The notes below the pieces were generated by a model. It was not told the DNA's origin, searched no databases, and saw only the letters and a program-made list of their open reading frames with translations. A program made the translations under genes and the position numbers. Below, one piece after another: positions 3,103 to 19,453 of a DNA stretch of 33,770 bases. This DNA comes from an uncultured Oscillospiraceae bacterium (GTDB taxonomy: Bacteria; Bacillota; Clostridia; Oscillospirales; Oscillospiraceae): the NCBI GenBank assembly GCA_947632175.1, contig CANROC010000027.1, forward strand, positions 1 to 33,770, read 5' to 3'. The stretch's first letter is position 1. Every line of letters starts with the position of its first letter.

Positions 3103-3804
3103 TTACATATTCATGGCTTCCATCGTCCGCACCAGTTCCTCCGCTATCTCAATCAGCGGACGGAAACCGGCTGCGAAGCTGTCCATACCCTTTTCCTTCC
3201 GGCTGCTGTCCCGGACGGCTTCCCCGTTCGGGGTTTTCCCGGCCGCCTTCACGTCGGGCTTCTCCTCCGCAGGAGCAGCCATGCCATGAGCCGCCTTACC
3301 GGGTGTGATCTTGCCGGGCATCTCCTCATCGATCCCCTCAAGCAGCCGCCCAACGAGTCCGCCGGAATCGCTGCTGAACATGCGGACAGGCATTCCGAGC
3401 CTGGCCGCCAGGCTGATCTCCTCCAGCATCCCCTCCGAGATCTTCGAGGAGAAGCACCACAGCTCATCGCAGTCCTTCAGCAGCTCAAGCCCCAGGTTCC
3501 TGCCGGTGCGGCGCTCTTCCGGGTCATCGTCCTTGAGGAACTGCGTAAAGAACAGGTGGCTGCACACAGGGATGCCGCCGAGGTTGGTGATCATCCGGCA
3601 GGCGTCTTTGGCGTGCTCCAGGTTCCCGGCCAGCTCCTTCTCCGCCTGCTCCGGGTCGCTGGCCGTCGGGCGGAGCGGGGAGCAGACGTAGATGCGCTCC
3701 CTGCGGTCCTTCTGCGCCTCAGCGGCGCGGTTGTCATTCTTGTCCACGATCTGAATCCTCCTATGATTGCCATGCTTCTTGTGATTGTCGTACTTACTTG
3801 TCAT
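3103..3804 (-). CDS. DUF4406-like (nucleoside 2-deoxyribosyltransferase-related) protein
   Basis: The core (roughly residues 40-140) reads RIYVCSPLRP, HAKDACRMITNLGGIPVCSH, FFTQFLKDDDP, GLELLKDCDELWCF and ISEGMLEEISLAARLGMPVR. This is the pattern of the DUF4406/DUF7768 group related to nucleoside 2-deoxyribosyltransferases: a Y(V)xSP start, a helix naming a predicted 'actor', and a SxGMxxE motif. Here it reads SEGMLEE, so the glutamate is kept. These proteins are common in phages and ICEs and may act on nucleosides or nucleotides, but no substrate is known. The N-terminus is very basic. The ATG at 3804 is the best start, although its ribosome binding site is weak. The linker after residue 150 is Ala/Lys/Pro-rich. 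Confidence 0.65.
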   Translation of the reverse strand: MTSKYDNHKKHGNHRRIQIVDKNDNRAAEAQKDRRERIYVCSPLRPTASDPEQAEKELAGNLEHAKDACRMITNLGGIPVCSHLFFTQFLKDDDPEERRTGRNLGLELLKDCDELWCFSSKISEGMLEEISLAARLGMPVRMFSSDSGGLVGRLLEGIDEEMPGKITPGKAAHGMAAPAEEKPDVKAAGKTPNGEAVRDSSRKEKGMDSFAAGFRPLIEIAEELVRTMEAMNM

Positions 3805-4049
3805 TGTTCTGTCCGGCACCGAAACCCGGCCGGATACGACCGGTCCATGCCGCACGCTCTTACTTCCTCTAAGGTCCCATAGCTGATGCCTCCTCTCCGA
3901 CTGGAATGCAGTGATGGATGTCTGATATGGAAAAGCGACTGATACCGTCTACTGCCAGCACCAACCGCTCTGTGGGGAGGCTCCTTGAAAAGCTCCTCTC
4001 ATAAGAAGTCGTGGGAGAGACGGTTTTGCAACCCCCTCTGAAGATTTTT

Positions 4050-4742
4050 TTAGGAAATTTTCTTCAGCCTCTTCAGTGCCTTCTCCAAACGGTGGTCTAC
4101 ACCCTGGCGGGAAATCTTGAGGTTGTCCGCAATTTCCTGCCGGGTCAGCCCATCGCGGTAATACAAAACAAACGCTTCTCTCTGCGTGTCGCTGAGTTTC
4201 TCCAGCATTTCCTGCTGTGTCTCCTTACGGATGTAGGCATCTTCCGGGTTCTCAGCAAATGGGGTATCTCGCCAGGAATACAGGTTATGAAGATAGGTGT
4301 CCTCTTCATCCTCCTGCACCTCAGCCTCATCGCAGTCATACTTCATGTCAGTCCTTTGCCCCCTGCGGTCACCTTTGCGGTTCATCATGTTCTCCTCTAC
4401 CTGGTGGTCGCCGCGGAGCATGACGCCGAAATACCACGGCTGTCCGCCGAGAGCCTCCTCATCCAGGACCGACTTCCCGGTAATGCTCTCCTTCTCCCCG
4501 TCCTTCGGCTGGACGAAGCGGTAAGTGAAATTCAGGCAGTCCTTCAGCCACAGGACCGTCGTGCCGCTGCCGTTCGAGTACACAGCGTAACCATTGGCAT
4601 AGACCTGACAGCCATCCATGTCAGCCACCGGTTCTCCCGCCGTCTCACGGAGCGCCTTGGCAGTAGGCCTCTTCTCCTCCTTTTCCAGTCCTCCAAGGCA
4701 GTTGATCAGTTCCTCCAGGGTCGTGTTCTTCGTAATGTTCAT
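4050..4742 (-). CDS. Sigma-70 region 4 domain protein
   Basis: The start at 4742 is set by GGAGG eight bases upstream. The C-terminal 65 residues read QQEMLEKLSDTQREAFVLYY, RDGLTRQEIADNLKISRQGV and DHRLEKALKRLKK, a standard sigma region 4 helix-turn-helix for -35 element binding. The 230-residue protein lacks a region 2 pattern; its N-terminal 165 residues (with an NGYAVYSNGSG segment and a later acidic stretch) are not recognisable. Proteins like this occur in phages and ICEs as late-gene or transfer regulators. It is transcribed away from the plus-strand operon at 4984, with 240 bases between the two starts. A regulatory link is possible but not shown. Confidence 0.75.
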   Translation of the reverse strand: MNITKNTTLEELINCLGGLEKEEKRPTAKALRETAGEPVADMDGCQVYANGYAVYSNGSGTTVLWLKDCLNFTYRFVQPKDGEKESITGKSVLDEEALGGQPWYFGVMLRGDHQVEENMMNRKGDRRGQRTDMKYDCDEAEVQEDEEDTYLHNLYSWRDTPFAENPEDAYIRKETQQEMLEKLSDTQREAFVLYYRDGLTRQEIADNLKISRQGVDHRLEKALKRLKKIS

Positions 4743-4983
4743 AAAAAATACCTCCGCATTTTCACTCCGCCATCTGGTTTTTTTCACAGATGCGTGCTAT
4801 ACTGGTTTGGATGGGTTTCCCTCTGGTTTCCCTGGGGTTACCCGCCCATTTACGGAGGCTTTATAATAAAGCCCCCAGAAGCCATCTCTGTGCTTCTGAG
4901 GACTACCTTGGACTTCGCCTTACAACCCCGAAACTGTTAGCGGAGTTAGCGAAGTTCGCAAATATAAGAATTGAGGAAAACGA

Positions 4984-5883
4984 ATGCAAAAAGAACCCGT
5001 ACCATATCTCTGCGGCGGCACCTTCTTTGTGTTGCTGACAGAAGTTAAGAGAAAAGGAGCCTCCAGGAGGCAGCTAAAATCAGGTATAAAGAGCCGAACT
5101 AACAATAGGGAGATGCTGGAAGCTCTAATCCAGCTTCTGATGCCATCGTTCCAGCAGCCCCCTTCCGGCAGAACCTTCGAAGGGGATACTTCAGATTACC
5201 GGGCCTGCAAAGTGTCACGCGGGGAGAATCTTCCTTTCGATGATAATTTGGAAATCCAAGCGTTTGATAAAAGGATCAAAACGGAGCACGCTTCTGTCCT
5301 GGCAAGGATGGATGACTTTGTTAACAGCTATCTCTTCACGGAATCTGAAGAACGTATGCGCTGGCTCATCCAGGCACTTCTCACCCTGATTGACAAAGAT
5401 AGCCGCATCACTTCTGATGCTCCGTTTTACCTTTCTGAAGCCCCCATCACGAAAGCTGAACTGCTAAATCTTGAAAAATACTATCTCTCCCCACTGCTGC
5501 TTTCTGTCTGGCATTTTATTGTCATGAATCGCCCCGATAACGAAAAGGGCCGCGGTACCTTTGAGGCGTGGCATGAGCGGGCTGATGAGATGAACGCCAA
5601 ATGGCGGTTTACGGCTGACATTGGAAAGACATATCCAAGGGAAATTGATTTTGAGCTGTTTTATACAAATGAAAAAGAAGCTGAAGAACGTGAAAGCGAA
5701 CCGGATAAAGAAGCCGAGCCTGAAGAACCAACTGTCGAAGTATACGAAGCACCATATTATGATCCCATTACAAAGCAGCAGGTAGTGGGGCAGTTCCATG
5801 TTGAGAATCACGGAAGCGGCATAGCGGCAGGAATCGTTTATGGCGGCATTACAATTGGAGGGAAAAGGAAAGATGGAGAATGA
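4984..5883 (+). CDS. Unknown protein with C-terminal glycine-rich motif (first gene of candidate conflict operon)
   Basis: The ATG at 4984 has GAGGA six bases upstream. The 299-residue protein is not one I recognise. Residues 1-60 are basic. The middle (about 60-215) looks like a soluble helical domain, with SEERMRWLIQALLTLIDKDS and SEAPITKAELLNLEKYYLSP. A Glu-rich linker follows (about 215-245). The extreme C-terminus, residues 271-293, reads FHVENHGSGIAAGIVYGGIT then IGG, a glycine-spaced beta-type motif. Very similar motifs sit at the N-termini of the next two proteins. The last bases overlap the next start by 11, so translation is coupled. The layout (domain, linker, C-terminal short motif) recalls receptor or effector proteins that meet partners through homotypic motifs. 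Confidence 0.65.
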   Translation: MQKEPVPYLCGGTFFVLLTEVKRKGASRRQLKSGIKSRTNNREMLEALIQLLMPSFQQPPSGRTFEGDTSDYRACKVSRGENLPFDDNLEIQAFDKRIKTEHASVLARMDDFVNSYLFTESEERMRWLIQALLTLIDKDSRITSDAPFYLSEAPITKAELLNLEKYYLSPLLLSVWHFIVMNRPDNEKGRGTFEAWHERADEMNAKWRFTADIGKTYPREIDFELFYTNEKEAEERESEPDKEAEPEEPTVEVYEAPYYDPITKQQVVGQFHVENHGSGIAAGIVYGGITIGGKRKDGE

Positions 5884-6442
5884 AATTGACAGGAAAAACG
5901 GTCTTCCAGTCGCAGGCCCCACTTTCAGCGTTTACGCTGAGGGAAACGCGACTGCAGTCGGCTACACGGATTCCATAAACACTACGCTGAATGTGATCTT
6001 CGCGGACGGTAAAAAGAGCAGTGTCAGTTCCAATTACTACAACTTATTGGTAGGATTCGATCCATTCGATAAAGACTATGTGCTGGTTCCAAAAGAACGT
6101 GCGCTGACCGAATACATACAGAATGATATCAAAGCTGAGTTTGGCAGCTGGAGTGCGGAAGCCATAGAGAAAATAAAAAAGCTGCCCGCCATCATCAGCA
6201 TGGAAGCCGATGGAACAGACGAGCAGCAGGCTGTATTTGCGTTCATTAAGAATATAAAGATTCAGGAAAATGGGATCAAGGTTTACTTCCAGAGATACTT
6301 TCCGATTCCCTTTACTGTTCTCCGTGCAAACCAACAGGAACTGGCGCTCCACTTGTTCGAATATACACGGACACACTGGACCATCAAGAATATAGACGTG
6401 GTGGAAGTATTGCAGGATGCGGGAGTCTTTCCGGGAAAGTGA
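5873..6442 (+). CDS. Unknown protein, glycine motif at N-terminus plus HW-type C-terminal domain
   Basis: I place the start at 5873, where GGAGGGAAAAGGAAAG precedes the ATG and the gene overlaps the previous one by 11 bases. The 189-residue protein has the motif FSVYAEGNATAVGYTDSINT at residues 18-37. A segment around YYNLLVGFDPFDKDYVLVPK follows. The C-terminal domain (about 100-185) contains AFIKNIKIQENGIKVYFQ and YTRTHWTIKNIDVVEVLQ. The same kind of C-terminal domain recurs in the following gene (NIKFSF..., EEHWSIRSGNLLQIAANLG), so these two proteins look like diverged paralogues. No catalytic motif or membrane segment is visible. Its function is unknown; the operon points to a complex with its neighbours. 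Confidence 0.65.
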   Translation: MENEIDRKNGLPVAGPTFSVYAEGNATAVGYTDSINTTLNVIFADGKKSSVSSNYYNLLVGFDPFDKDYVLVPKERALTEYIQNDIKAEFGSWSAEAIEKIKKLPAIISMEADGTDEQQAVFAFIKNIKIQENGIKVYFQRYFPIPFTVLRANQQELALHLFEYTRTHWTIKNIDVVEVLQDAGVFPGK

Positions 6443-6449
6443 AGTGCCT

Positions 6450-7133
6450 ATGGATAATATAATCAAAACAACAGGCAGCCCACGGCTTCCATCATCCACA
6501 GAGACAACAGCCGTCCCGGCCAAACCTGCAGGTACTGCATCCGTTAATGTATCTGCATCCGGGGAAGGCATCGCGGTAGGCGCCCTCTATGGAGACATAA
6601 ATTTGAACGCTACGCCGGAAGCACTCGCTGTTGCCTTGAGGATGCTTGGCGTCCAGCAGCCTTCCACCTCCCATGCCGTGGAATGGGCTTCTTTGGACAC
6701 TGACCGATATAATGTATTCGTGATTGAAAATGAAAAATATGACTGTGGTGCTTTCTGTATCGGTCGGCGAGTCGCTTTGAAAAATACATTGCCAAGACAT
6801 AAAGACTATTTCAGACCCCTCACCGGCCCATTGATACAAGAACTGCTGAATATGCCCTGCCTTTTCACAGTCAGGAACTTTAATTACAAGAGCATTCCGA
6901 ACTATTATCCGGCCTTTCTGGGCAAACTTAACAGTGTACAGTGCCAGGGAGAAAACATTAAGTTTTCTTTTTCCTCTTTCGCACAGCTGCGTCAGCAGTT
7001 TATCAACGATAACATCAGATTATTCGGTCTTCTGTCACGCACTGTACGGAACCAGTTAGATGAAGAGCACTGGAGCATTCGTTCTGGAAACCTGCTGCAG
7101 ATAGCCGCAAATTTAGGAATTGAAATTAAATAA
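6450..7133 (+). CDS. Unknown protein, second glycine-motif/HW-domain paralogue
   Basis: The start at 6450 lies 7 bases after the previous stop, with GGGAAAGTGAAG upstream. The 227-residue protein opens with a Ser/Thr/Pro-rich tail. The motif VNVSASGEGIAVGALYGDIN follows at residues 32-51; it matches the C-terminal motif of the first operon protein almost position by position (G-x-G-I-A-x-G-x-x-Y-G-x-I). The central domain has ALRMLGV, EWASLDTDRYNVFVIENEKY and LLNMPCLFTVRNFNYKS. The C-terminal part, SVQCQGENIKFSFSSFAQL then EEHWSIRSGNLLQIAANLGI, parallels the preceding protein. I do not recognise the family. Confidence 0.65.
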   Translation: MDNIIKTTGSPRLPSSTETTAVPAKPAGTASVNVSASGEGIAVGALYGDINLNATPEALAVALRMLGVQQPSTSHAVEWASLDTDRYNVFVIENEKYDCGAFCIGRRVALKNTLPRHKDYFRPLTGPLIQELLNMPCLFTVRNFNYKSIPNYYPAFLGKLNSVQCQGENIKFSFSSFAQLRQQFINDNIRLFGLLSRTVRNQLDEEHWSIRSGNLLQIAANLGIEIK

Positions 7134-7143
7134 GGAGAATGCT

Positions 7144-7335
7144 ATGGCGAATGAAGAATTAAAAGACAAATGGTTCAACATTGAAGACATTGCAGAGTAC
7201 CTGAGCATTACACAGGACACAGCCCGTGCCTGGGTCAGGGACGGAAAACTTCCTGCCTATAAAGTGGGGAAAAGATATAAGTTCAAGCTGTCCGAAGTGG
7301 ATGAGTGGGTACGGGATGGAAAAATAAAGGAGTAA
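7144..7335 (+). CDS. Excisionase-type helix-turn-helix protein
   Basis: This is a 63-residue protein with AAGGAGAA placed correctly before the ATG at 7144. It reads FNIEDIAEYLSITQDTARAW, then VRDGKLPAYKVGKRYKFKLS, then EVDEWVRDGKIKE. That is the complete winged HTH_17/excisionase (MerR-like) fold: helix, helix, the 'K-L-P-A-x-K-x-G-x-x-Y' wing, last helix. Small proteins of this type either control directionality of recombination or regulate a local promoter. Here it sits between unknown genes and the ATPase, with one base between its stop and the ATPase start, so a role in controlling or addressing this operon seems more likely than excision. Confidence 0.85.
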   Translation: MANEELKDKWFNIEDIAEYLSITQDTARAWVRDGKLPAYKVGKRYKFKLSEVDEWVRDGKIKE

Positions 7336-7336
7336 A

Positions 7337-9211
7337 ATGATGGATAGAAAAATCAGGACATGTATCACGGGTATTACAGTCAACGGCCCGACATATAAGA
7401 ATGTAAGCATTGTTCCCTCCATGCTCAATTTCTTTTATGGAAAGAACGGAACCGGAAAATCGACGCTGGCGAGAGCGTTTAAGGACGGCAGTGCCGCTTT
7501 GTCATGGGATGGGGCTCCTTATCCGGAAAGCCAGATACTGGTATATAATGAAGACTTCATAACAAAAAACGTGCAAAGCTATGGTAACATTCCCGGCGTG
7601 TTCACAATATCAGAAGTAAACGCACAGAAGAAACGGGAAATCGATCAGAAAACCGCTGACCGAAAAGCTGCTCTTGACGATATTAAAGCAAATGAAGTTA
7701 CCATCAAAAGTAAAGAGCAGGAAAAGGGCAAGTATTATACAGAATATGTGGAGGATGTATGGCAGGAATCTAAGGAATTCCGTGAAAAATTCCCTCTTGC
7801 GCTCGCATATCTGCGCGATAAAAAGAAGTTTGCGGACAAAGTAGACGGTTTAACCCCCAAGCAAAAACGTTATAATCCTGATGCCCCATTCTTTGATGAG
7901 GAAGATATGCCTGAATATGAGGAAGAAAGCGAAGAAGTACCGATCCCAATAGATGAGATTGAAACGCTTTATCAAACCGTTTACGGAAAAGAGCAGCCCG
8001 AGTTCAGCAAATACCATCTGTTTCCCGTAAAGGAACTGCCTGTACTTCCCACCTCTCTGGCCAATCCAATCATCAGCCGGAGCGATACCGAATTTGCGCG
8101 CTTCATCCGGGCGCTTGGGAACATGGACTGGATCACCCAGGGCCACACAAAGTATCACCATACAGCAGGGAAATGCCCCTATTGCCAGCAGGAAATGCCC
8201 GCAACCTTTGAAGACGATCTCGCTGCGTGCTACGATGAACAGTATAAAGAGGATCTCTCCAGGCTGGATGCTTTTGTAAAACGGTACAAGGATGTGCTGA
8301 ACAGCATATATAAAGAAGCTAATCTGAATATTCAAAATCCGTATCCCACGCCGCTTCTGCAGGAATACAAAAGAATATTTGACCTGTTTATGGAAAAAGC
8401 ACGGGCAAATGTTGCCACGCTTGAAAAGAAACTTGCCACGCCGTCAGAGTATATTGATTTGGAAAACCTGTCTCCGCTCCTTGACGAAATGGCGGATATT
8501 GCGCGTAAAATCAACAGTGAAATCCAAGTGCGCAATGATGTACTGGCAGACATACCTTCCCAGCGCAAAAAATGTTCTGACCTGGTTTGGAAGGCAATCG
8601 TACAGCGCACACAGCTTTTTACAAATACTTACAGGGCCCATATGCGCGATATCCGCGGGAGCATAGTACAAATCCAGACCCAGATTAATGCACAGAAAAA
8701 AGTGGTCAATACCCTTGCCGCTGAAATCACACAGTTAAACAGCGAAACGGTTAACACTACAAAAGCAATGGAAGACATCAACATGGCAATCCGAAGCGCA
8801 GGATTTAAGGGCTTCTTTCTCCGGAAAAAGCCCGGCGCTAAATACGTCTACCAGCTGGTCAGGGAGTACAATGGAAGGCAGGATGTCGTAGAGAAAAACC
8901 TCAGTGAAGGTGAACGGCATTTCATTGCATTCCTCTACTTCTACCACATGGTTATGGGAAGCCAGTCGGACGAGGGTAAGGTAGAAGACAAAATTGTCAT
9001 AATCGATGACCCCGTATCGTCCATGGACAGCAGCTCCCTTTTCATTGTCGCCTCGCTTACCCGTGAGATGATTGCTGTCTGCTATAACAACTATGCGTTG
9101 TTCTGGATATTAGAATATTTTCATATTGAAGCACAAGTTCTGCTCCCGCCTTGCCTGCTCAAATGGTTTAAAGAACGGGCAGCCCCGGTGGCCGAAATCG
9201 TTGTCCGTTAG
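7337..9211 (+). pseudogene. RloC/PrrC-like ABC ATPase, truncated at the 3' end
   Basis: The start at 7337 has AAAGGAG upstream. Walker A is at residues 35-43 (GKNGTGKST). A CPYC pair at 280-283 sits within the coiled-coil middle, like the zinc hook of RloC. The ABC signature LSEGERHF begins at about 522, and Walker B with D-loop, KIVIIDDPVSSMD, is at 552-564. In this AAA_13 (COG4694) family the protein should continue after Walker B with an H-loop (LTHN) and, in RloC/PrrC, a C-terminal anticodon-nuclease region. Here family-like sequence stops at about residue 587 (CYNNYA, near 9100). The last ~37 residues are read antisense through a foreign minus-strand gene. The protein probably cannot complete its ATPase cycle. 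RloC-type proteins act as stress- or phage-triggered nucleases; any such function here is inferred. Confidence 0.75.
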
Positions 9212-9445
9212 CGCCATGCACTTCCCGCCGATGCAGGAGAAGCAGCGGCTTCTTTCACAATCAGGGCAGGACTCCATCGGCTCCTCCCTTTCCCCCGAAA
9301 GCCCCTGTGCGCCGGGCACCGCGCCCTTCAGCGCCTCTTCCAGTTCGTCCGGTTCCTCATCCCCGGTGAGCCGTGGCATTTCTTCCTCTGCCGGCGCCCT
9401 GTTTTTCCCTGCCGCCAGCCAGGCGGCCTTCCGTTTCCCACTCAT
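9110..9445 (-). CDS. Cysteine-rich small protein with zinc-binding pattern
   Basis: I use the ATG at 9445 (MSGKRKAAWLAAGKN), which has GGAAAGG eight bases upstream; an ATG at 9451 is too close to that site. The 111-residue protein has a basic N-terminus, an acidic Glu-rich middle, and a C-terminal cysteine cluster: CPDCERSRCFSCIGGKCMAL then GHRGCPFFKP. The spacing suggests one or two zinc sites. Small proteins with RCFSCxxGKCxAL and CPFxKP recur in Firmicutes mobile elements; no function is known to me. Its last residues (after about 9125) switch to AT-rich sequence and read antisense to the ATPase remnant, so its natural C-terminus may also have been replaced at the junction. Confidence 0.65.
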   Translation of the reverse strand: MSGKRKAAWLAAGKNRAPAEEEMPRLTGDEEPDELEEALKGAVPGAQGLSGEREEPMESCPDCERSRCFSCIGGKCMALTDNDFGHRGCPFFKPFEQARREQNLCFNMKIF

Positions 9446-9482
9446 ATCCATCCTTTCCGGCCCCTGCTGCGGCCTTTTAATG

Positions 9483-9872: not shown

Positions 9873-10919
9873 TCAAATCATCTTTTTCAAAATGGCTTGA
9901 TCTTCCTTGCTGACCTTCAGCACTTTCATTGCATCATCTACCGTTACCTTAAAAGACTCCATGACATTCTTCACAGCAGAGCATAAAGTTTCCAGTTTGC
10001 TTTCTTGCTTCGTCTTTTCAATAATTCCAGCGCTCAGATTACACATCGTGTCCACCTCCTGGCTTATCGTCTCCGTTACCGCTATGTTGAATTCATTCGG
10101 CAACATCTCTTTCTTTTCTTCTTTGCTTATCGTCTGGGAAAACAGCTTGCTCAGCAGCCGTACCATCGGATTGTCGCTTTTCTCTCCCTTTGCTCCCAGA
10201 CGGATCACCACGATCTTCTCCAGATCATAGTTCTCAGGATCTTCTTTATAATCCCCGTGCCGGCAGCTCTCCTGGAATTGATAATCATTGATGGAGTCCG
10301 CCCTGTCCTCGGCTGTTCCTACACAGATCCATACGGAGACTACCTTCTGGATCTTCTCGTAGTGCTGCCCTGTGAATACCGTTCCCTTTTGTGCGGATAT
10401 CATCCGGGAACCATAGTAGATTCCCCGTTTTGTGATAGGATATCCAGGGGTATCGTTATTTTGGATCTCAACATTGATGATAATCTCTACCAGGGTCCCA
10501 TCCTTCGGCACACGCACTACAAACCGGATGTCATAATATATGCTGCCTTCCCGAATGCTTTTATCCTCTGTGGATGATCCCTCTATCCGTCTGTTGCCGC
10601 TCAGCTTCCCGTTCTCCTCTTCGTCAGCTTCCAGCAGCTCGACCTCTACATCTTCGCTGTCTTCCGGAACCTCGATGTCGGTATGATCCTGCATCACCGC
10701 TATTTTGCTGATCTTCGGCTTTCCCTCTATGTACTTCGGGATCTCCTTCAGCGGCGTATCCGCGAACTCATCCATCGTGTACTTCAGAATATACGCCAGG
10801 ATTGCCTTGTTTGCAACCAGCTTTTTTGCTGTCGCGTCATGCGCCGCGCTTTCGTCTGTCACATTCAGGGTCTGCGCCATGTCATTTTCTATGATCTGTT
10901 TATCTTTATTCTCACCCAT
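9873..10919 (-). CDS. Rpn/PD-(D/E)XK nuclease family transposase-like protein
   Basis: The start at 10919 (MGENKDKQIIEND) has GGAG seven bases upstream; the frame is open further but without a better site. The 348-residue protein has the core IYYDIRFVVRVP followed by EIIINVEIQNNDTPGYPITK and RGIYYGSRMISAQKG. This gives the D...(E)xQ pattern of PD-(D/E)XK nucleases of the recombination-promoting nuclease (Rpn) group, common and repeated in Lachnospiraceae. Its length is normal and all frames are intact. Rpn proteins cleave DNA and promote RecA-independent recombination. The C-terminal half (ESFKVTVDDAMKVLKVSKED) is the usual helical tail. A perfect consensus promoter lies about 90 bases upstream of the start. 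Confidence 0.85.
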   Translation of the reverse strand: MGENKDKQIIENDMAQTLNVTDESAAHDATAKKLVANKAILAYILKYTMDEFADTPLKEIPKYIEGKPKISKIAVMQDHTDIEVPEDSEDVEVELLEADEEENGKLSGNRRIEGSSTEDKSIREGSIYYDIRFVVRVPKDGTLVEIIINVEIQNNDTPGYPITKRGIYYGSRMISAQKGTVFTGQHYEKIQKVVSVWICVGTAEDRADSINDYQFQESCRHGDYKEDPENYDLEKIVVIRLGAKGEKSDNPMVRLLSKLFSQTISKEEKKEMLPNEFNIAVTETISQEVDTMCNLSAGIIEKTKQESKLETLCSAVKNVMESFKVTVDDAMKVLKVSKEDQAILKKMI

Positions 10920-11009
10920 GGCGTATCTCCACTCTTTATCCGACGGTATTCCTGACGCGGAGTTCTGTCTGTTGACCGTCTGTATATTGAAACCTGATAT
11001 CACACTTAC

Positions 11010-11038
11010 ATTATAATCAATTCGCCCCAAAATGTCAA
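11010..11038 (-). promoter_or_regulatory. Perfect consensus sigma-70 promoter of the Rpn gene
   Basis: On the minus strand TTGACA (11033-11038) and TATAAT (11010-11015) are separated by exactly 17 bases. Transcription would start about 80-85 bases before the Rpn start codon. This is an unusually strong promoter for a nuclease of this type. Confidence 0.75.
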
Positions 11039-11167: not shown

Positions 11168-12715
11168 TCACATTCCCAGTTCTCGCCTGATCATATCGTC
11201 CAACTTGTATAGGATCTCTATCTTTCCCGGCCCATAGACGTACACCGCCTCTAGGAACCGCTCTTCCATTTCCGGCGTCAGTTTGTCGGTACTCTTTATC
11301 CCATACAAGGCGTCGTCCACAGCCTGGTTCAGTTCCTGGCGTTTCTTCTCCTCCTGACGGAGTTCCATTGTCTCTGATTCAAGCTCCTCTATCTTTTCCT
11401 GGGTCTTATCCTTTCTTTCCAGGTATTCTTCCTTTCCGATGATCCTGTCGGCGTACATCTCATAGAGCTTCAGTTTTTCGTTTTTCAGGTCTTCCAGCCT
11501 TTTGTCTATAAGCGCAAGGCTCTCAGTATCCTCTGTCTTTCCCTTTTTCAGTCCCTTGACCCTTTCGATAACCACTGCCAATGATCCCAGTACGGCGCTC
11601 TCTACTTCGCTTACAGGATACCGCTCTTTCGGACATTCGGTGAACTCTCCCTGCCTGCCCCTGTGCTGGCAGTAAAAGTACTTTCCGCGGCTATTGGATA
11701 TATACGTCATGGCTCTATGGCAGTTCCCGCATCGGACCTTTCCCTTCAGCGGATAAGTTTGAGGATCATTACATTTCTCCCTGTTCCTGCTCACACGAAC
11801 CGCCTGCGCCTTTTCATATTTCTCCCGGCTTATAATTGGCGCATGGTTGTTCTCCAGAGTGATCCACTCATCCTTCGGCTTTCTTCGGACTTTATGGCTG
11901 CCCACTGAGACCGCTTCCAATGTGCCGCCTATCAAAGCTCCGGTATAGGCATAGGTTCCAAGTACGCTCGCCACCATGGCGGATGTCCACCTCCGCTCAT
12001 GCTCCGCCGCGACCGGTTTGCCGTAGAGGTCCATACCATGCGTGCGCTGGTACTCCGCCCTCGTTGGGATATTCCGTTCATTCAACAGGGCCGCTATCGC
12101 GGTTGTATTCTTCCCTTTTCCAGCCTCCTCAAAGATCAGCCGCACGACATCCGCCGCTTCCTGGTCGATCACCCATTCCGTCCCGGCTTTGCGGTAGCCG
12201 TATGGGACGCGGTTTGTCTGCTTCGTCCCATTTTGGTATCTTGTGTAGTTCCCGCTTTTGACTTTCCTTGAGATGTCCCGGCTGTAGAGCGTATTGACCA
12301 GGTTCGTAAGAACACTGTCCAGACTGCCCGCGGGATCCGTTTTGCTGTCATACCCGTCGTTCACGGAGATGAGCCGGATCCCCAGCAGCGGGAATATCTG
12401 CTCGATATAATCGCCCACGGTGATGTAGTTTCTGCCCAGGCGCGAAAAATCCTTGACCAGGATGGCTTGGATCTTCTTTCTCTTCGCGTCCTCGATCATC
12501 CTTTTGAAGGAAGGCCGGTCAAAATTCGTCCCGCTGTAGCCGTCGTCGGCGTACTCGGTGACCGTATCCTGGAATGGATCAAAGAGTTCCTGATGTTCTT
12601 TCAGGTAAACCCGGAGGAGTCTCCTCTGGTTCTCGATGCTGTTGCTCTCATCCTTCCTGTCTCTGCCCAGGTCTCCGTCTGAAACAGACAGCCGCAGATA
12701 TAACGCAAAGTTCAC
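11168..12715 (-). CDS. Large serine recombinase (last of a trio)
   Basis: The start is probably the GTG at 12715, with GGGAGG upstream; it overlaps the preceding stop codon by four bases (GTGA). The 515-residue protein has an intact resolvase domain. The nucleophile is Ser10 in YLRLS, followed by DDGYSGTNFDRPSF and KDFSRLGRNYI. A recombinase domain comes next (VPYGYRK..., AAVVRLIFEEA-type helix). A zinc ribbon follows (VRCGNCHRAM ... FYCQHRG ... EC), then a coiled coil and a C-terminal sheet (ILYKLDDMIRRELGM). Such enzymes integrate and excise elements by a Ser-DNA intermediate. It is translationally coupled to the 585-residue recombinase and shares one operon with the degenerate third member. 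Confidence 0.9.
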   Translation of the reverse strand: MNFALYLRLSVSDGDLGRDRKDESNSIENQRRLLRVYLKEHQELFDPFQDTVTEYADDGYSGTNFDRPSFKRMIEDAKRKKIQAILVKDFSRLGRNYITVGDYIEQIFPLLGIRLISVNDGYDSKTDPAGSLDSVLTNLVNTLYSRDISRKVKSGNYTRYQNGTKQTNRVPYGYRKAGTEWVIDQEAADVVRLIFEEAGKGKNTTAIAALLNERNIPTRAEYQRTHGMDLYGKPVAAEHERRWTSAMVASVLGTYAYTGALIGGTLEAVSVGSHKVRRKPKDEWITLENNHAPIISREKYEKAQAVRVSRNREKCNDPQTYPLKGKVRCGNCHRAMTYISNSRGKYFYCQHRGRQGEFTECPKERYPVSEVESAVLGSLAVVIERVKGLKKGKTEDTESLALIDKRLEDLKNEKLKLYEMYADRIIGKEEYLERKDKTQEKIEELESETMELRQEEKKRQELNQAVDDALYGIKSTDKLTPEMEERFLEAVYVYGPGKIEILYKLDDMIRRELGM

Positions 12716-14469
12716 GGTTCCCTCCCGCTGCATACTTTCCCGGTCACATCCGGAACATCTTCCGCACCGGCTATGAATTCCTTCACAAGAGGGCTTTGTA
12801 ATATGTCCCCGCATTTGAACAGGACTTCCACGGTATCTCCGCCGCTCAGCCGGATGGACCCTACAAGCTCTTTCACCAGTTTCGGATTAAAATCATACTG
12901 CCCTTTCATCGGCTTCAGGTCTTCCGCCGTCCTGCGGCACTCTTCCACCGCTCTTTCCATCTCCGTGAGCGTTCGCTCGAGTCGTTCCGTCTCCGTCAGC
13001 GCCTCCCGTTTTTCCACGTCGGTTTTCTCCTTGAGGGTCAAAAACTCCTCCCGGTCAAGGATCCCCTCCACATAGTCCTCGTACAGCTTCTCCCTGCGCT
13101 CGTCCAGTTCCTGGTTGCGTTTCCTTGCCTCCTGGATCTCGTCCTTTCGTTTCTTTACAGCCGCGCCGCCGTCCTCTGCCTTTGCCTTTCGGATATGCGC
13201 CGCTATGTCCTCCGCCGAACGCGCCAGTTCCCGGATGCGGTCCATCACCGCGATCTTGATGAATTCCTGCGTCACGGAGCTGTTTTTGCACCCGGACACC
13301 CTGCCGTCCGATTGCTTGCAGCGGTACCTCAGGCCGATGACCTCTCCGTACTCGCCCTTTTCCCTATGCCGGTAAAACTGCATCGGCCTGCCGCAGTCCG
13401 CACAGTAGACCATCCGGTAGAAGTAGTCCGGGTATTCCTCATCCAGCCGCTCCCGGCCGCTGTCGATCTTCTCCTGGAACGCGTCCGTTTTATCGTGAAA
13501 TTCCTGGAGCCGCTGAAACTCTTCTTCCGTTATGTAAGGCGTATGCCGGTCCGGGAAGAGCGCCCACTCGTCTCTCGACTGTACCTGGGACGGCTGGCTG
13601 CGGTACTTTGCCTGGCTCGTCTTCCCCAGGCACAGGTATCCGGCGTAGGCCGGGTTGCGGATGATAGCGTCAACGGCGCTGTACGTCCACTTATCGGAGA
13701 CTCTTCCCTGCTTTTCCACCGGCCCGCCGTTTGCGGCTTCCCTGGCCGCCAGCTTTGCCCTGCTCCTTGTCGGCGCGCCGATCAGGTTCAGCCTCTCCAC
13801 GATGACCCGCACCGGCACGCCCGCGAGTCTCCACGCGAAGATCATCCGCACATACGGCTCCGTGGCAGGGTCAATTATCATGTGATCTCCGTCTCTCAGG
13901 TAGCCCATCGGCGGCGCTATCCCGTTGGCGTTCCCGGACTTTTTCGCCATCTCCCACGTCTGTGTGGATTTCTTTGAGAATTCCATTGCGTACATCGTGT
14001 TGACGATGTTCTTGAAGGGAACGATCATCCCTTCCAGATCCCCTTCACGGGCGCTGTCCAGGTTATCCGTGATGGCTATAAAGCGCACATTCAGAAGCGG
14101 CAGGATCCTCTCCAGGTAGTATCCCGTCTCAATGTAGTTCCTGCCAAACCTCGAAAGATCCTTGACTACAATGCACTGGATCTTCCCGCGCTTCACATCC
14201 TCCATCATCCTCCGGAACTCCGGCCGGTCGAAACTTGTGCCGCTCATGCCGTTGTCTACATAGGTATCCGTTAACACCAGATCGTTTTGCCGTGCGATAT
14301 AGTCCACCACAAGGCCAATCTGCGTCTCGATGCTGTCAGAAGTTCCGTACCCGTTATTCTCGCTGGACAGCCTCACATATGCGGCTGTGCGCAGTCTGCT
14401 TTCCTGCTGATCTCGCTTTAGAAGTTCCTCAGACTCTATCCTGCCGTTTCTTCTGCTCTTCCTCGCCAT
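12712..14469 (-). CDS. Large serine recombinase (middle of a trio)
   Basis: GGCGGAGGAG directly precedes the ATG at 14469. The 585-residue protein has an intact catalytic domain: Ser35 in YVRLSSENN, DNGMSGTSFDRPEF, and VVKDLSRFGRNYIETGYYLE. The DNA-binding recombinase domain follows (IAPPMGYLRDGD, then IFAWRLAGVPVRVIVERLN). A zinc ribbon (VYCADCGRPM ... RYRCKQ ... SGC), a long coiled coil (about 430-530) and a C-terminal tail come last. It begins 17 bases after the stop of the 408-residue degenerate relative and overlaps the next recombinase by four bases. All three would be made from one message, as expected for subunits of one machine. Confidence 0.9.
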   Translation of the reverse strand: MARKSRRNGRIESEELLKRDQQESRLRTAAYVRLSSENNGYGTSDSIETQIGLVVDYIARQNDLVLTDTYVDNGMSGTSFDRPEFRRMMEDVKRGKIQCIVVKDLSRFGRNYIETGYYLERILPLLNVRFIAITDNLDSAREGDLEGMIVPFKNIVNTMYAMEFSKKSTQTWEMAKKSGNANGIAPPMGYLRDGDHMIIDPATEPYVRMIFAWRLAGVPVRVIVERLNLIGAPTRSRAKLAAREAANGGPVEKQGRVSDKWTYSAVDAIIRNPAYAGYLCLGKTSQAKYRSQPSQVQSRDEWALFPDRHTPYITEEEFQRLQEFHDKTDAFQEKIDSGRERLDEEYPDYFYRMVYCADCGRPMQFYRHREKGEYGEVIGLRYRCKQSDGRVSGCKNSSVTQEFIKIAVMDRIRELARSAEDIAAHIRKAKAEDGGAAVKKRKDEIQEARKRNQELDERREKLYEDYVEGILDREEFLTLKEKTDVEKREALTETERLERTLTEMERAVEECRRTAEDLKPMKGQYDFNPKLVKELVGSIRLSGGDTVEVLFKCGDILQSPLVKEFIAGAEDVPDVTGKVCSGREP

Positions 14470-14486
14470 CTCCTCCGCCTTCCATC

Positions 14487-15713
14487 TTACGCTTGTTCTT
14501 CCTGCGGGTCAAGGCCCTTCAGCAGAAGATCCCTCCAATAGGTCTCCCTCAGCCCGCCGCGCTTTGCGGAGTAATACATGCTTTTGCGGGTCCCGTCCCA
14601 GGAGGTGTACAGCTTCAGCCAGGGATTGTCCGCGCTTGCCGCCAGCGGGATATTCTTCTCCGCCGCGGTGCATTCCGTCAGGACAGCCTCCGTCTCCCGG
14701 ATCTTCCTGTCCAACTCCTCCGACAGACGCTTAAGCTCTCTTCTGGTGAGTTCTGTATCCGCATCCCGGCATCTTTGATACGCCTCCATCTTAGCCGCGT
14801 GTGCATTGGCTATGCTCATGGCGGCATTCTGAGCTTCTTTCCGGGTTCTCTCCATGAGCCGTTCCCGAACGTCCTCATCCTTTTGGATGCGCTCCGCAGT
14901 CCTGGCAGCAAGCCTGTGCTCTTTCTTCAGGAGCGCCAGGATCTCACCCTCATCCGGCTCGCTGTCAATTGCGGCCGCCGCGACAGGATTTCGTTCCGGA
15001 AACCTTCTCTGGACTTCATCAAACATATTCGGTTCGATGATCGGCCCGTATTTTTCGTCTATGTACATCCTGTCCCGCAGGATCTGCCGGATCAGCTGCC
15101 TATACCACGGGCAGTTCCCTGTCGGAGACGGGATCTCTTCCTCTTCCAGCGTCCTGATGATCTTCTCAGGACCTACGCCATCCAGGCGCATGCGGAAAAT
15201 CCTGCGGACTGTCTCCGCCTCGGCTTCGTCAACCACCATCACGCCGTCCTCTTTTCTGAAGCCGTATGTTGGGCGTCTCCCGCCGGGCGACGCCAGCGCG
15301 GCGTTCCTTTCTGCTTTTTTACAGCCCAGGAGCTTGTAATGCGCGGCCTTAAAGTATGATTCCACTTCGTCCACGGTCTTTCCACGGCTGGTAAAGCCGT
15401 CCGAAACGGCGGTGAAGTGGATCCCCGCGGGAAAGAACGTGCCCAGAAGCACATACTTTGCCGCCGTGACGTCGCGTCCCGCTGCAAAAACCGAATCGAT
15501 CAGCACATGATCGAACCGCCGTCTCGCTCCGTCCTCCAAAAGCCGCGTGAACCCATCGCTTGCCGTGTGGGTCTCTTCCGCGTCCGTATAGGATTTCGTT
15601 ATCTCAATGCCGTGAGAAGCGGCGTATTTCAGGATCTTCTCTTCCCGTTCCGCCAGGGACATCTCGTCCCCCGGCATGCAGGAGAGCGCTCTTATGTAGG
15701 TTACCGCTTCCAT
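14487..15713 (-). CDS. Degenerate serine recombinase-like protein (first of a trio)
   Basis: The start at 15713 has GAGGTGA upstream. The 408-residue protein follows the layout of a large serine recombinase but with an altered catalytic core. It opens YIRALSC, so serine stands at R+3 (Ser11) instead of the usual R-x-S. The DxxxSGxxxxRP motif is replaced by TDAEETHTASDGFTRLL. The D(R)LxR motif reads IDSVFAAGRDVTAAKY. The recombinase domain (PTYGFRKEDGVMVV, EAETVRRIFRMRLDGVGPEK) is recognisable, but the zinc-ribbon cysteines are missing. The coiled coil is present. The reading frame is intact and GC-rich like its partners, so it is probably a maintained, non-catalytic subunit that helps its two active relatives bind DNA. 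Confidence 0.75.
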   Translation of the reverse strand: MEAVTYIRALSCMPGDEMSLAEREEKILKYAASHGIEITKSYTDAEETHTASDGFTRLLEDGARRRFDHVLIDSVFAAGRDVTAAKYVLLGTFFPAGIHFTAVSDGFTSRGKTVDEVESYFKAAHYKLLGCKKAERNAALASPGGRRPTYGFRKEDGVMVVDEAEAETVRRIFRMRLDGVGPEKIIRTLEEEEIPSPTGNCPWYRQLIRQILRDRMYIDEKYGPIIEPNMFDEVQRRFPERNPVAAAAIDSEPDEGEILALLKKEHRLAARTAERIQKDEDVRERLMERTRKEAQNAAMSIANAHAAKMEAYQRCRDADTELTRRELKRLSEELDRKIRETEAVLTECTAAEKNIPLAASADNPWLKLYTSWDGTRKSMYYSAKRGGLRETYWRDLLLKGLDPQEEQA

Positions 15714-15838
15714 CTTTCACCTCGTCCCTGGCGCCATCTGTGACGGCATTCCCGGTCGAAATGCCCGCCTGCTTTTCTTTATCCGCTAATACCATTGTAC
15801 TCATCCTTAGCCACATAGCAAGCGGTTTCAAAGAATTT

Positions 15839-15870
15839 TCACCTGTTTTTCAGGAAATTCTGCCAGGTGA
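15839..15870. repeat. Inverted repeat in the gap before the recombinase trio
   Basis: TCACCTG and CAGGTGA are perfect seven-base arms around 18 bases. There is no T-run on either side, so a protein-binding site is as likely as an RNA hairpin. It lies about 125 bases upstream of the first trio gene. Confidence 0.4.
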
Positions 15871-15883
15871 CTCACGATGAGTA

Positions 15884-15922
15884 CCGTCGGTGCCATCCCC
15901 GGTGTCCCGTCAGCGCCATCCC
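15884..15922. repeat. Direct repeat pair upstream of the recombinase trio
   Basis: CCGTCGGTGCCATCCC (15884-15899) and CCGTCAGCGCCATCCC (15907-15922) match at 14 of 16 positions with a 23-base period, about two helical turns. They lie in the 285-base untranslated gap upstream of the trio, next to the inverted repeat at 15839, and could be regulatory binding sites. Confidence 0.4.
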
Positions 15923-15998
15923 AGGCTTCTTGTATTTTCATCCCCGATGTGATATACTATTCCCCTCAGATGAACCGGGCATCTTTTACGGACATTTT

Positions 15999-16559
15999 TT
16001 ATTGGTCACAAATCACCGGCCGCACTTCCCGGTCTCCATTCCTATCCTCTGGCTCACGCGTAATGATCCCCAGCTGCAGAAAAACAGGGTAAAGATAGCT
16101 TGCGCCGAACGTGCCGATCTTTTTCGGGCCGGACACACAGCCTTCCGCCGCCTGCACTTCCTTCGCACGGCGATAGGACAGGAACACGGTCGCCATGGTG
16201 ACGGACTTTTCTTTCCGAGCAATGAACATCTCTCCGCCCCGGATCGTATATGTAAACTCCATGCCTTTGCTGGTCCGGAAGACCGTTCCTTGGCGCGCTG
16301 TCAGTTCCTCCCACAGCTTCATTTCCTCCGGCGTATATGGTTTGGCCGTTCTTTGCGGTTCTGCGCTCTCTACCGTATCTGTCGCGGGGACTGCATACTT
16401 TTCCCGCAGTCTTTCGTCGCGCAGTTGGCACCGGTTCATATCCTCGGGAACCTTTCCCGCAAGGATCCCGGTAAGAGCTTCCGTCTCTGATTCGCAGCCA
16501 TCGTTTCGGTTTGTTGGGACGTTCAGTCTGTCTGCATCCATATCCCTCACAGCTTCCAT
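15999..16559 (-). CDS. Conserved hypothetical protein of recombinase operons
   Basis: I take the ATG at 16559 (MEAVRDMDADRLN), which overlaps the preceding gene by 13 bases and has AAAGGA directly before it; a second ATG at 16541 is also possible. The 186-residue protein has a polar N-terminal half. Its folded C-terminal half reads YTPEEMKLWEELTARQGTVF, FTYTIRGGEMFIARKEKSVT, MATVFLSYRRAKEVQ and GTFGASYLYPVFLQLGI. I know this second part only as a conserved hypothetical domain in clostridial mobile elements, where it sits near serine recombinases; its function is unknown. It has no catalytic or membrane signature. Confidence 0.6.
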   Translation of the reverse strand: MEAVRDMDADRLNVPTNRNDGCESETEALTGILAGKVPEDMNRCQLRDERLREKYAVPATDTVESAEPQRTAKPYTPEEMKLWEELTARQGTVFRTSKGMEFTYTIRGGEMFIARKEKSVTMATVFLSYRRAKEVQAAEGCVSGPKKIGTFGASYLYPVFLQLGIITREPEDRNGDREVRPVICDQ

Positions 16560-17005
16560 TCCTTTGTGCAGTACCACTCCGTGAGCGGTTTCTTCTCACA
16601 CAGCCCGGCTACCTCGAGCGATTCCTGTACCCCGCAGAGATCGCATACGGTCACGTTCGCGTACCGGCTGAGCGCGTGCCTGCGAAAGCTCTCCAGCTCC
16701 GCTCCGCATCTCGGGCAGTGCCCTTTTTCGGCTGTCTCCTGAAGCTTTCCCAGCCAGTTCAGCGATACCTTGATCTCTTCCTCCGACGCCACGCGGTGCG
16801 CTTTGTCCACCGGATACGCAAGGGACAAGGAACTCCCACAGTCCCAGATCGCCATTACACTTCCTACATCGTCCACTCCCCTGCATACGCCCTGCGTTCC
16901 TGCTGGGATCTTTGTATACGGGTCGTCCAGTTTGTCACAGACGATCCTGCACCCTTTCGGGAACTCTTTGCGCAGACGCTCTATCGTTTCCTGATCCGCA
17001 AACAT
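16547..17005 (-). CDS. DUF4314 protein with zinc ribbon
   Basis: AGGGAGGTCAGG precedes the ATG at 17005. The N-terminal domain (about residues 15-70) reads VCDKLDDPYTKIPAGTQGVC, RGVDDVGSVMAIWDCGSSL and LAYPVDK, the typical DUF4314 beta-barrel pattern ('DDPYT-x-(I/L)-P-x-G-T-x-G'). The C-terminal part has a CPRCG...CDLCG four-cysteine knuckle and a later CEKK/WYC pair. DUF4314 proteins are common in integrative elements and plasmids of Firmicutes. The fold suggests nucleic acid or protein binding, but no function is established. The gene lies 36 bases downstream of the interrupted recombinase. Confidence 0.8.
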   Translation of the reverse strand: MFADQETIERLRKEFPKGCRIVCDKLDDPYTKIPAGTQGVCRGVDDVGSVMAIWDCGSSLSLAYPVDKAHRVASEEEIKVSLNWLGKLQETAEKGHCPRCGAELESFRRHALSRYANVTVCDLCGVQESLEVAGLCEKKPLTEWYCTKEWKL

Positions 17006-17041
17006 GACCTGACCTCCCTATTGCTTTCTTATTTGCAGACG

Positions 17042-19453
17042 TCATCCCGCCATCTCATTTCTGAGATAGGCGATTGTGTTCTCCGCCGTCTCCCGGCTGG
17101 GGATATCCAGCCCCAGCGTCCAGCCGTAGGGAACGGATTTGGATCGTGTTCCTTTCCACGGCGGTCTTTCCCGGAAGGAACCGACCAGCTCTCCGAAGCT
17201 GTCCGCCCAGTCTGACGGGTAGATCGTAAAGCTGCTCTTTCGGATCACCGCCATGCCTTTCAGATAATGCCACCCTTCCCTGGGCGACAGCCCCGTCCGG
17301 ATCATCTGGCGGATATATTCCGGGTCGAACCTCTTTTCTCCCAGGTCCGCAAGGCTGATCTCTCCGTTGGTCTTCTCCAGCAGTTCGTCATAGTAGATCG
17401 CTCTGCTCCGGGAGAGCTTCTTCGCCGCCGTCGCCATGGGGCCGTCCCCCAGTTCAAAATCGTCGAGATTCGGCATTTTGTTGTAATTCTTCGGGATATT
17501 CCCTCCCCGAAGCGCCTGCCTCGCTTCCTGGCTGGTCATATCCTCCGTGTCCATATCTTCCGCAATATCTTTTTTGGCCGGAACGATGATGATAGGCTCC
17601 TCCAGGCTGAAGACCAGTACGGTCTCGTCCCCAAGGTCTTCTTTCGTTCCGATGAAGCGGTATTTATAATCCCCGTTCCACTTCATGTTGTCATAAACCG
17701 CTCCGGACAGTCCCCTGCTGGCGCAGCGGCGCATGGAGATATACCCTTCCCTGTCACGGATCCATCGGAGTGTGCCAGGCGTATTCTCCTTTGCGGCGCG
17801 CACGAACAGCAGCCGCTCGATCGGATTATATACGATCTCCACCTCCTGCAGCGTCTCCTGATCGCCGTCCAGCTTCCGGAAACATGATTTGCTGAAGGTG
17901 ATCCCCCGGCTGTCCAGCGTGACATACGGCTTATCCCGGTAGGAAAAGAGCTGGGCTCTTGCAACCTCACAGGCTGCAAGACCGCCACATTGCGTACTGC
18001 GGGTCTCCAGTCTGTTCCTGTCCCGGTATTCCTCTACCAGGGCGGAGAAGCCGTCCTGAGCCTTCTCGGGCTCCGGCAGCGTCTCCGGCGCTTCCTTATC
18101 CGGGAACAGCTCGTAATCGTCCGAATCGATGGCATACTGGTGGCTGAACTCGCCGGCCGACACAGGCTGGCTGACCGTTTCAGTTATCTCTTCGGACGGA
18201 TGGTCGCGCTCCTGGATCGCCTGAAGCGTTTCCTCCTCCGCTCCGTTCGCCCTCAGCGCGGCGCGGTTATAGTCCTCCGCGCCAAACCCCAGCCAGTTTG
18301 GAACGGTCAGCACGGAACCGGACAACGGGCCCTCCTCGAAGATCTCCAAGACAGGCAGCCCCTTATCCCAGCCGCCTTTGTTCGCGCGGATCAGGCGCTG
18401 GGTCAGCAGGAAATCTTCTCTGGATACGATCCCGAGGTGCTGGTCCGTGGCGTAGTATTGCGGCAGCACGTTGTCGTTGCGTTTGGATCGGTGGTCCAGA
18501 TAATTGGGCGTCCAGGTCTTCTGGGCTAATACGTCCCCGCATCTGCGCTCATTCTTCAAAACAGACATGACCGTACCGGCGCTCCACTTCACCTCTCCCT
18601 CTTTCCGGATGCTTCCGTCAAGATTGTGCCTTGTGTGCGTCTTCCTGCCCAGGCTGACCAAGATCTCGGCGATCTCCTTCGGCTGGTACCCAGCGAGGTA
18701 CAGCATGAAGATCAGCTGCACCGTCACCGCCTCTTCCTCGTTGACGGTGATCTCATTCACGCCGGAGCGGTCGTAGCCCAAAAGATCCGGCTTCATGAAG
18801 TTGCCCTGGCTGAACCGCTGCTTATACGAAGCCAGCATCGCTTCGCTCTTCTTATGGCTCTCCTCCTGCGCCACAAGGCTCAGCACCTGCAGGGTGAAGT
18901 CCACGCTCTTATCCAACGTGAACATGTTCTCCGTCTCGAACAGGATCCCTACCTGCCGCGGAAGTCCTCTCAGCTCATAGATGATGTTCATGCAGTCCAT
19001 GAGGTTGCGGCTCAGGCGGGAGAGGTTCTTGACCACGATGATGTCAAACTTGCCCTGTCTCGCGTCTTCCAGCATCCGCAAAAGGCCGACCCGCTTGCTG
19101 GTGCTGGTGGCGGACAGGCCCTCGTCGGAATACAGGCCCACGAGTCTCCATTCCGGTCTCTGTCTCACCATCTTCAGGTAATAGCTCTTTTGCAGTTCAA
19201 ACGAGCTGACCTGGGAGATCCCATCGGTAGAGACGCAGCATTAGACCACCACGCGCTTGCGCTGGCGGGGATCGGTCAGACTATGCTGCTGTCTTACCGG
19301 GATCACCGTGATCTTGCTCATGTCCAGTTCCCGGTTATATCTCTCACGCACATCGTCTTTTCCTGTCAGTTGAGGGCGCTTTTCTTTTTCCCTGCCGGTG
19401 ACAGGGCGAAGACCTTCGTTCAGTCTTCCGGACCGCTTTTCGGTTTCTTCCAT
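17042..19453 (-). pseudogene. Very large serine recombinase interrupted by an in-frame stop at its catalytic motif
   Basis: A single frame runs from the ATG at 19453 (AGGGAGG upstream) to 17042, with one TAA at 19241-19243. Before the stop it reads MSKITVIPVRQQHSL...RQRKRVVV; after it CCVSTDGISQVSSFELQKSY, then LVGLYSDEGLSATSTSKR and KNLSRLSRNLMDCMN. In relatives this junction reads RVAAYCRVSTDG, so the tyrosine codon became TAA and the arginine two residues before the catalytic serine became cysteine. The rest of the resolvase and recombinase domains and a long C-terminal extension (about 430 residues) are open. That extension contains YVTLDSRGITFSKSCFRKLD, a domain shared with the two accessory genes upstream. 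A restart at the ATG at 19171 would give a protein without the nucleophile. Confidence 0.85.

Follow-up and report, generated by a model that had tools for sequence, protein, structure and literature searches.

A recurrent operon of phages and Bacillota with matched terminal motifs on neighbouring proteins: a candidate NLR-independent, amyloid-type relay around an AAA_13 ATPase

In bacterial amyloid signalling sequence (BASS) pairs, two genomic neighbours share a short motif, which is C-terminal in one protein and N-terminal in the other; other domains sometimes replace the usual effector, and some of the motifs are similar to RHIM or BASS3 (PMC7889193, PMC8086366). The receptor in these pairs is an NLR and the effector a Bell protein, and the pairs are found mainly in filamentous actinobacteria and cyanobacteria. 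Whether signalling amyloids of bacteria also exist in NLR-independent pathways is a question raised in one review (PMC7889193). Here, we describe an operon from the window, i.e. the 33,770-nucleotide contig CANROC010000027.1 of an uncultured Oscillospiraceae bacterium (assembly GCA_947632175.1). This operon includes genes for protein A, for protein B or for B together with its paralogue C, often for a helix-turn-helix (HTH) protein, and for an AAA_13 (RloC-like) ATPase; it recurs in phages and Bacillota. It resembles BASS pairs in the matched motif and in the exchange of the effector domain, and some of its motifs appear similar to RHIM or BASS3. Unlike these pairs, the main system comprises an AAA_13 ATPase and the adaptor B/C, with no NLR and no Bell domain recognised, and some systems possess a motif-bearing paralogue pair (B and C). 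We consider it reasonably probable that a homotypic assembly motif, probably of the amyloid type, joins the proteins of an ATPase-based, probably anti-phage, conflict system that needs no NLR. The computed basis of this reading is the operon itself, the paralogy of B and C, the matching of tails and heads within systems, the presence of a second N-terminal domain joined to a tail of this kind, and the occurrence of the domains in fused and split states.

Relatives of at least one operon gene were detected in four genome loci, three viral loci, phage records and a Lactococcus plasmid. The phage carriers include Streptococcus phages Javan105, Javan102, Javan108 and Javan112 as well as Ca. Heliusvirales phages. 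Scans with the B and the ATPase alignments recovered 30 and 75 viral loci, respectively. A preliminary description of the window had proposed that motif-bearing genes should be sought beside other RloC-like ATPase genes, and such co-occurrence was indeed found: B was present in 67 and A in 59 of the 75 loci recovered with the ATPase, four of which had two B-type genes. Two close relatives of the ATPase (L064 and L111) have no B upstream and are preceded by other genes. The plasmid locus (pUCCL628C, positions 5266-6927) encodes A and B with matched IYNIE tags, followed by a small gene and then a recombinase gene; no ATPase was annotated there, and a profile search of that strand detected none. 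Bacterial genomes rarely contain B: five of 398 genomes of the phylum and three of 300 of the family, one of the latter three being a fusion of B with FRG. A was identified in three of 391 genomes of the class, namely the genome of origin, a NACHT fusion (L019) and a weak match (L020). A larger A profile matched 13 of 398 phylum genomes, many of them with other architectures. All these counts include the genome of origin; one genome locus (L006) is partly masked and most of its B and C is absent.

The matching of A tails to B heads was assessed across systems. The sample contained 113 loci with B (repeats on the same contig included); A adjoined B in 95 of them, 45 were left at less than 70% B identity, and 44 were tested, L031 being omitted because its B is devoid of the N-terminus. 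The last 45 residues of A were scored against the first 95 residues of B, with 20,000 permutations. Open reading frames (ORFs) were taken from the earliest start, hence some B heads carry extra residues. Own pairs scored 54.2 and other pairs 28.7, with none of the 20,000 permutations as high. The own pair ranked first in 19 of 44 systems and among the top three in 31; for B proteins sharing at most 35% identity, it ranked first in 14 of 16. The motif pattern itself varied. NYGT, QIG, IYNIEH and IAxGxxYG types were all recognised in particular systems, and a further type paired FNFNVTGNNNSF with INLPGDGNTLIAHA. The motif thus has no constant sequence: it changes from one system to another, and tail and head agree inside each. 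A scan for a third motif-bearing partner near the operons, in which A tails were compared with the two ends of other ORFs (those inside the A-B stretch skipped), gave a single hit of at least 44, a doubtful one with a score of 49 on the opposite strand in L037.

The segments in question are short and rich in G and N, and B and C are paralogues. These features would suit an explanation by similar low-complexity tails without partner specificity, or by recent duplication of a segment into the neighbouring gene, which we regard as very improbable. Own pairs exceeded the permuted ones in 20,000 of 20,000 cases, and neither the A linker (13,795 of 20,000 permutations as high) nor the A N-terminus (6318 of 20,000) displayed any own-pair excess. 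Chance and composition were therefore ruled out as the cause of the pairing, the control with the B C-terminus being borderline. In the 34 of 44 systems whose own pair scored at least 45, the same codon was used at 196 of 392 identical-residue sites, as compared to 181.2 expected from codon usage. Since codon identity is near this expectation, the match appears to be kept at the protein level and recent duplication of a DNA segment was also ruled out. The co-variation suggests that the neighbouring proteins may join through matched tags, as amyloid-tagged immune proteins do, and a contact between tail and head is strongly implied.

Several systems without A begin with another gene, A', whose N-terminal domain has no detectable relation to that of A (best E value 0.28 with all filters off). 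The tails of six of eight A' proteins scored 42-58 with the head of their own B, while other heads averaged 26-33.

In two phages, of Terrisporobacter and Erysipelothrix, A' precedes a helicase gene and no B was annotated in the stretch fetched. In the respective loci (L137, 4501-8368; L138, 4501-8364), A' is accompanied by a helicase of 918-930 amino acids and by a small gene, which the L137 record labels a repressor. The C-terminal end of these A' proteins is another domain and does not carry the motif. A motif common to A' and the helicase was also considered; the best scores anywhere in the helicase, 32 and 30, were unconvincing. This A'-helicase locus may represent a distinct system that has yet to be described.

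The A and B domains occur both split, as in the operon, and fused to other domains. The B domain is N-terminal in TIR proteins (L049 and, by record annotation, L133) and in FRG proteins (L045, L050, L158 and, by annotation, L132). The motif-bearing head was absent in all six fused proteins examined, the YNF/YNL start of the domain being reached by residue five or six at the latest. The profile aligned from residue 2 in five of them and from residue 22 in L132, the start of which is still MFNFLV. Operon B proteins, by comparison, have a median of 68 residues ahead of the domain start (40 measured; domain starts before residue 36 were ignored). A plasmid search with the B domain returned 107 records, and the best 40 of these 107 were mostly annotated as TIR proteins, with one FRG. 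The domain (YNLF ... HWxIK) had no Pfam hit of its own in the TIR and FRG proteins scanned.

The A domain, in turn, is N-terminal in NACHT proteins (L019, L146 and L155) and heads CTD11 proteins of the ABC-3C type in other genomes (L147, L148, L150, L152, L153 and L020; partial matches with E values of 1e-8 to 1e-11). A Pfam search of the window proteins A, B and C found neither a C-terminal nor a middle-component domain of ABC-3C. In L019, A is fused to NACHT and SNaCT14, whereas in L160 A is a separate protein, and the gene immediately following it encodes a homologous NACHT-SNaCT14 protein, identical to that of L019 at 222 of 500 residues. In L160, the tail of A and the head of the NACHT protein align over 24 ungapped residues with a score of 46 (seven of 5000 shuffles as high); other windows within the first 496 residues of the NACHT protein score at most 20 against this tail, and the value of 46 was equalled by one of 44 other A tails and one of 44 other B heads. 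With a separate A and a NACHT protein matched by tail and head, L160 has its genes arranged as in known amyloid signalling pairs. NACHT/STAND NLR-like proteins with SNaCT14 are thus met here in fused or in tail/head-paired form with the A domain; none is present in the window operon, and an NLR on the receptor side was encountered only in the side case of L160.

The motifs were also compared with published amyloid sequences. A published BASS3 peptide, which has been reported to aggregate in experiments (PMC8086366), scored 21.3 against A tails (shuffles, 17.4) and 21.9 against B heads (shuffles, 18.0), with none of 400 shuffles as high in either case. The controls revealed no excess: 104 of 400 shuffles were as high for the linker of A and 89 of 400 for the C-terminus of B. 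These similarities place the putative kinship of the A/B motif with the class of amyloid motifs, without proving membership in a named family.

A number of results weigh against the assembly reading. The gain in score with BASS3 is modest, though measurable, and a second published peptide performed less well (15 of 400 shuffles as high for A tails and 57 of 400 for B heads). The RHIM core tetrad is (V/I)-Q-(V/I/L/C)-G (PMC9444067); our scan pattern, [VI]Q[VIL]G, was detected in only four of 44 A tails (shuffle mean 0.36, maximum 3) and one of 44 B heads, and was absent from the window segments. The B C-terminus control was borderline (22.2 for own pairs versus 21.2; 1122 of 20,000). Own pairs ranked 10th or lower in five of 44 systems: the window, L004, L029, L041 and L088. 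In the six systems that encode C, A and C of the same system gave the best score of the row only twice. The A' tails of L010 and L113 scored 29 and 30 with their own head, no better than average; the own-head ranks of all eight A' tails were 1, 2, 3, 5, 8, 5, 19 and 16 of 52, and the eight include close relatives, so that not all are independent. In L048 the B domain stands alone, with no head and no fused partner in frame. Finally, the HTH gene was located just upstream of the ATPase gene in only 38 of 67 systems by profile; a count of 19 of 75 obtained with a sequence pattern was too strict and is superseded by this figure.

The window copy adds to these points. The three motif segments claimed in adjacent proteins are all present and all in frame. 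When compared by BLOSUM62 local alignment score with one segment shuffled 5000 times, the A and C segments scored 46, which none of the shuffles reached; the genes of these two proteins are separated by that of B. The B segment, by itself, was not significant: it scored 32 with C (equalled in 472 of 5000 shuffles) and 24 with A (1533 of 5000), lacks the Y-G-x-I half of the motif, and the own A-B pair of the window ranked 14th of 44 systems. The claim of a motif shared by all three proteins therefore held for A and C in the window and was weak for B. The B heads of relatives retain the core (AEGDGIAVGY...), and in L025 and L026 a common motif is visible by eye in all three proteins.

The rarity of strict RHIM tetrads would also agree with a non-amyloid alternative, in which the A tail and the B head pair in fixed stoichiometry as a closed beta-zipper or small beta-solenoid. 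A and B would then be permanently joined, without polymer formation or templating. Such docking would explain the co-variation, the headless fused B proteins and the presence of the tail on both A and A' equally well. We consider it unlikely. Tail and head resemble, rather than complement, each other, as is the case in homotypic stacking, the BASS3 amyloid peptide from the literature raises the scores, and the NACHT locus is arranged like known amyloid signalling pairs.

The ATPase calls for comparison with RloC and PrrC, with which it has in common the AAA_13 fold, the CXXC zinc hook and the Arg-x3-Glu element; the partners A and B with their assembly tags are the difference. The published RloC triad is Arg-X3-Glu-X36-52-His (PMC2610378). 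The zinc-hook cysteines were invariant in our 10-row ATPase alignment, and the triad Arg and Glu were conserved in 66 and 63 of 74 family members, respectively. One phage record annotates the ATPase as RloC. These features are consistent with an RloC-type anticodon nuclease operon, in which the ATPase itself would be the effector (a tRNase), A and B/C would be silencing or sensing partners, and the motif would only hold the silencing complex. The third residue of the triad is ambiguous: a His within the published spacing occurs in 34 of 73 family members and in only one of four other AAA_13 proteins used as controls, while a near-invariant His (72 of 74) is located at X79-90. The window copy is devoid of the region needed for comparison of the triad His. 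The A domains, moreover, are also found in NACHT and CTD11 proteins. We view this nuclease explanation as rather unlikely, with a clearly lower probability than the assembly of tagged proteins. The ATPase was taken neither as a proven nor as a dead anticodon nuclease, as the spacing rule held in only one of four AAA_13 controls.

In PADLOC, the window ATPase matches one of the models of the phage defence candidate PDC-S06; A, B and C have no convincing model. The S entries of PADLOC are single genes. At least four papers mention PDC-S06; in the accessible text of one of them, PMC11514479, it appears as a table entry only.

If the tagged proteins do assemble, the ABC ATPase is likely the sensor or switch, as judged by analogy. 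Once triggered, it would cause the N-terminal motif of adaptor B, together with the paralogue C where present, to nucleate an ordered beta-type, probably amyloid, assembly. A or A' would then be templated onto this B/C assembly via the same motif at its C-terminus, and its N-terminal domain would thereby be concentrated and switched on as a recruited effector. We infer the amyloid nature, the direction of signalling, a toxic or blocking role of A, and phage defence from the gene arrangement, the fusions and the candidate-defence label. The wider proposal stands evenly balanced in our judgement: an NLR-independent amyloid-type relay in bacteria and phages, leading from an AAA_13 ATPase via a tagged adaptor to exchangeable effectors with the same tag, in which a motif private to each system would prevent cross-talk and the A domain would also plug into NLR-like and ABC-3C proteins, tying together three conflict machineries.

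The operon co-occurrence and the tail/head co-variation support the earlier proposal that a homotypic assembly motif is at work in a conflict or signalling system not described before. No description of the operon, or of motif pairing with an AAA_13 ATPase, was found among the papers listed by searches of the open-access literature, as surveyed by titles and the openings of abstracts; a search on the vrl locus returned only unrelated papers. The A/B family is a concrete candidate for NLR-independent signalling amyloids. It offers dozens of natural tail/head pairs that match within themselves and are diverse in sequence, so that specificity is directly testable using short peptides. If the reading is correct, partners would be assigned to an ATPase that is currently catalogued among phage defence candidates, and phages would be seen to carry such relays.

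The features of the window operon are listed in Table 1, with the profile matches of the HTH protein and the RloC-like ATPase. The coordinates of all three motifs were read by hand from the sequence. Starts of three genes were picked by hand: that of B (ATG; 5840 in the ORF list, the analyses having used 5876-6439), that of C (6417 in the ORF list) and that of the HTH gene (7120 in the ORF list). Given this start of B, its gene shares 11 bases with the end of the A gene. The paralogues B and C have a C-terminal HW[ST]IK signature in common.

Table 1. Features of the operon in the window
Feature	Position	Strand	Remarks
Protein A, 299 amino acids	4984..5883	+	N-terminal LCGGTF-type domain, acidic linker (by eye), C-terminal motif
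Motif at the A C-terminus	5794..5853	+	Read by hand from the sequence
Protein B	5873..6442	+	N-terminal motif, then domain with HW[ST]IK signature
Motif at the B N-terminus, weak in the window copy	5924..5983	+	
Protein C, B paralogue with N-terminal motif	6450..7133	+	
Motif at the C N-terminus	6543..6602	+	
HTH_17 / excisionase-type DNA-binding protein	7144..7335	+	HTH_17, 2.7e-16; TIGR01764, 9.6e-16
AAA_13 (RloC-like) ABC ATPase	7337..9211	+	AAA_13, 1.5e-88; PDC-S06, 470 bits

At the thresholds applied, none of A, B and C matched a Pfam family (one match of B, E=0.087, was under the cut-off) or an NCBIfam family. PHROGs gave nothing for A and C and one weak family of unknown function for B (0.0074). 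PADLOC models did not match B or C, and the single match of A (E=0.02) was unconvincing. Comparison by sequence with solved structures yielded nothing credible for A or B and nothing for the ATPase.

The ATPase of the window is incomplete. Its likeness to relatives stops after CYNNY, at about position 9094, before the H-loop and the C-terminal domain (translations compared by eye), and the AAA_13 match covers profile positions 17-562 of 713. The remainder of the frame (9095-9211) is unrelated sequence, overlapped by a reverse-strand ORF of 113 amino acids (9110-9451). A search of the genome of origin, made without a positive control, did not recover the missing end at another place. To the eye, an insertion or deletion seems to have disrupted the operon copy. 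Since the C-terminal part of the ATPase is missing, this copy is probably inactive; relatives possess intact ones.

Further downstream, a PDDEXK_2 transposase-type ORF (9873-11030) is located beside four serine-recombinase-type ORFs (11168-19171, minus strand), three of which contain Resolvase and Recombinase domains and one the Recombinase domain only. Ahead of A, the window contains a divergent sigma-70 region-4 gene and a DUF7768 gene (3103-3855 and 4050-4787, minus strand). Genes resembling these two were seen in L003, L004, L006, L008 and L009, and several relatives have them ahead of the operon (by eye only). Terrisporobacter phage TPDSL_ph1 (L137) has an annotated sigma factor gene near the A'-helicase operon, on the opposite strand. 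The site flanked by sigma and DUF7768 genes is possibly one cargo hotspot used by different systems.

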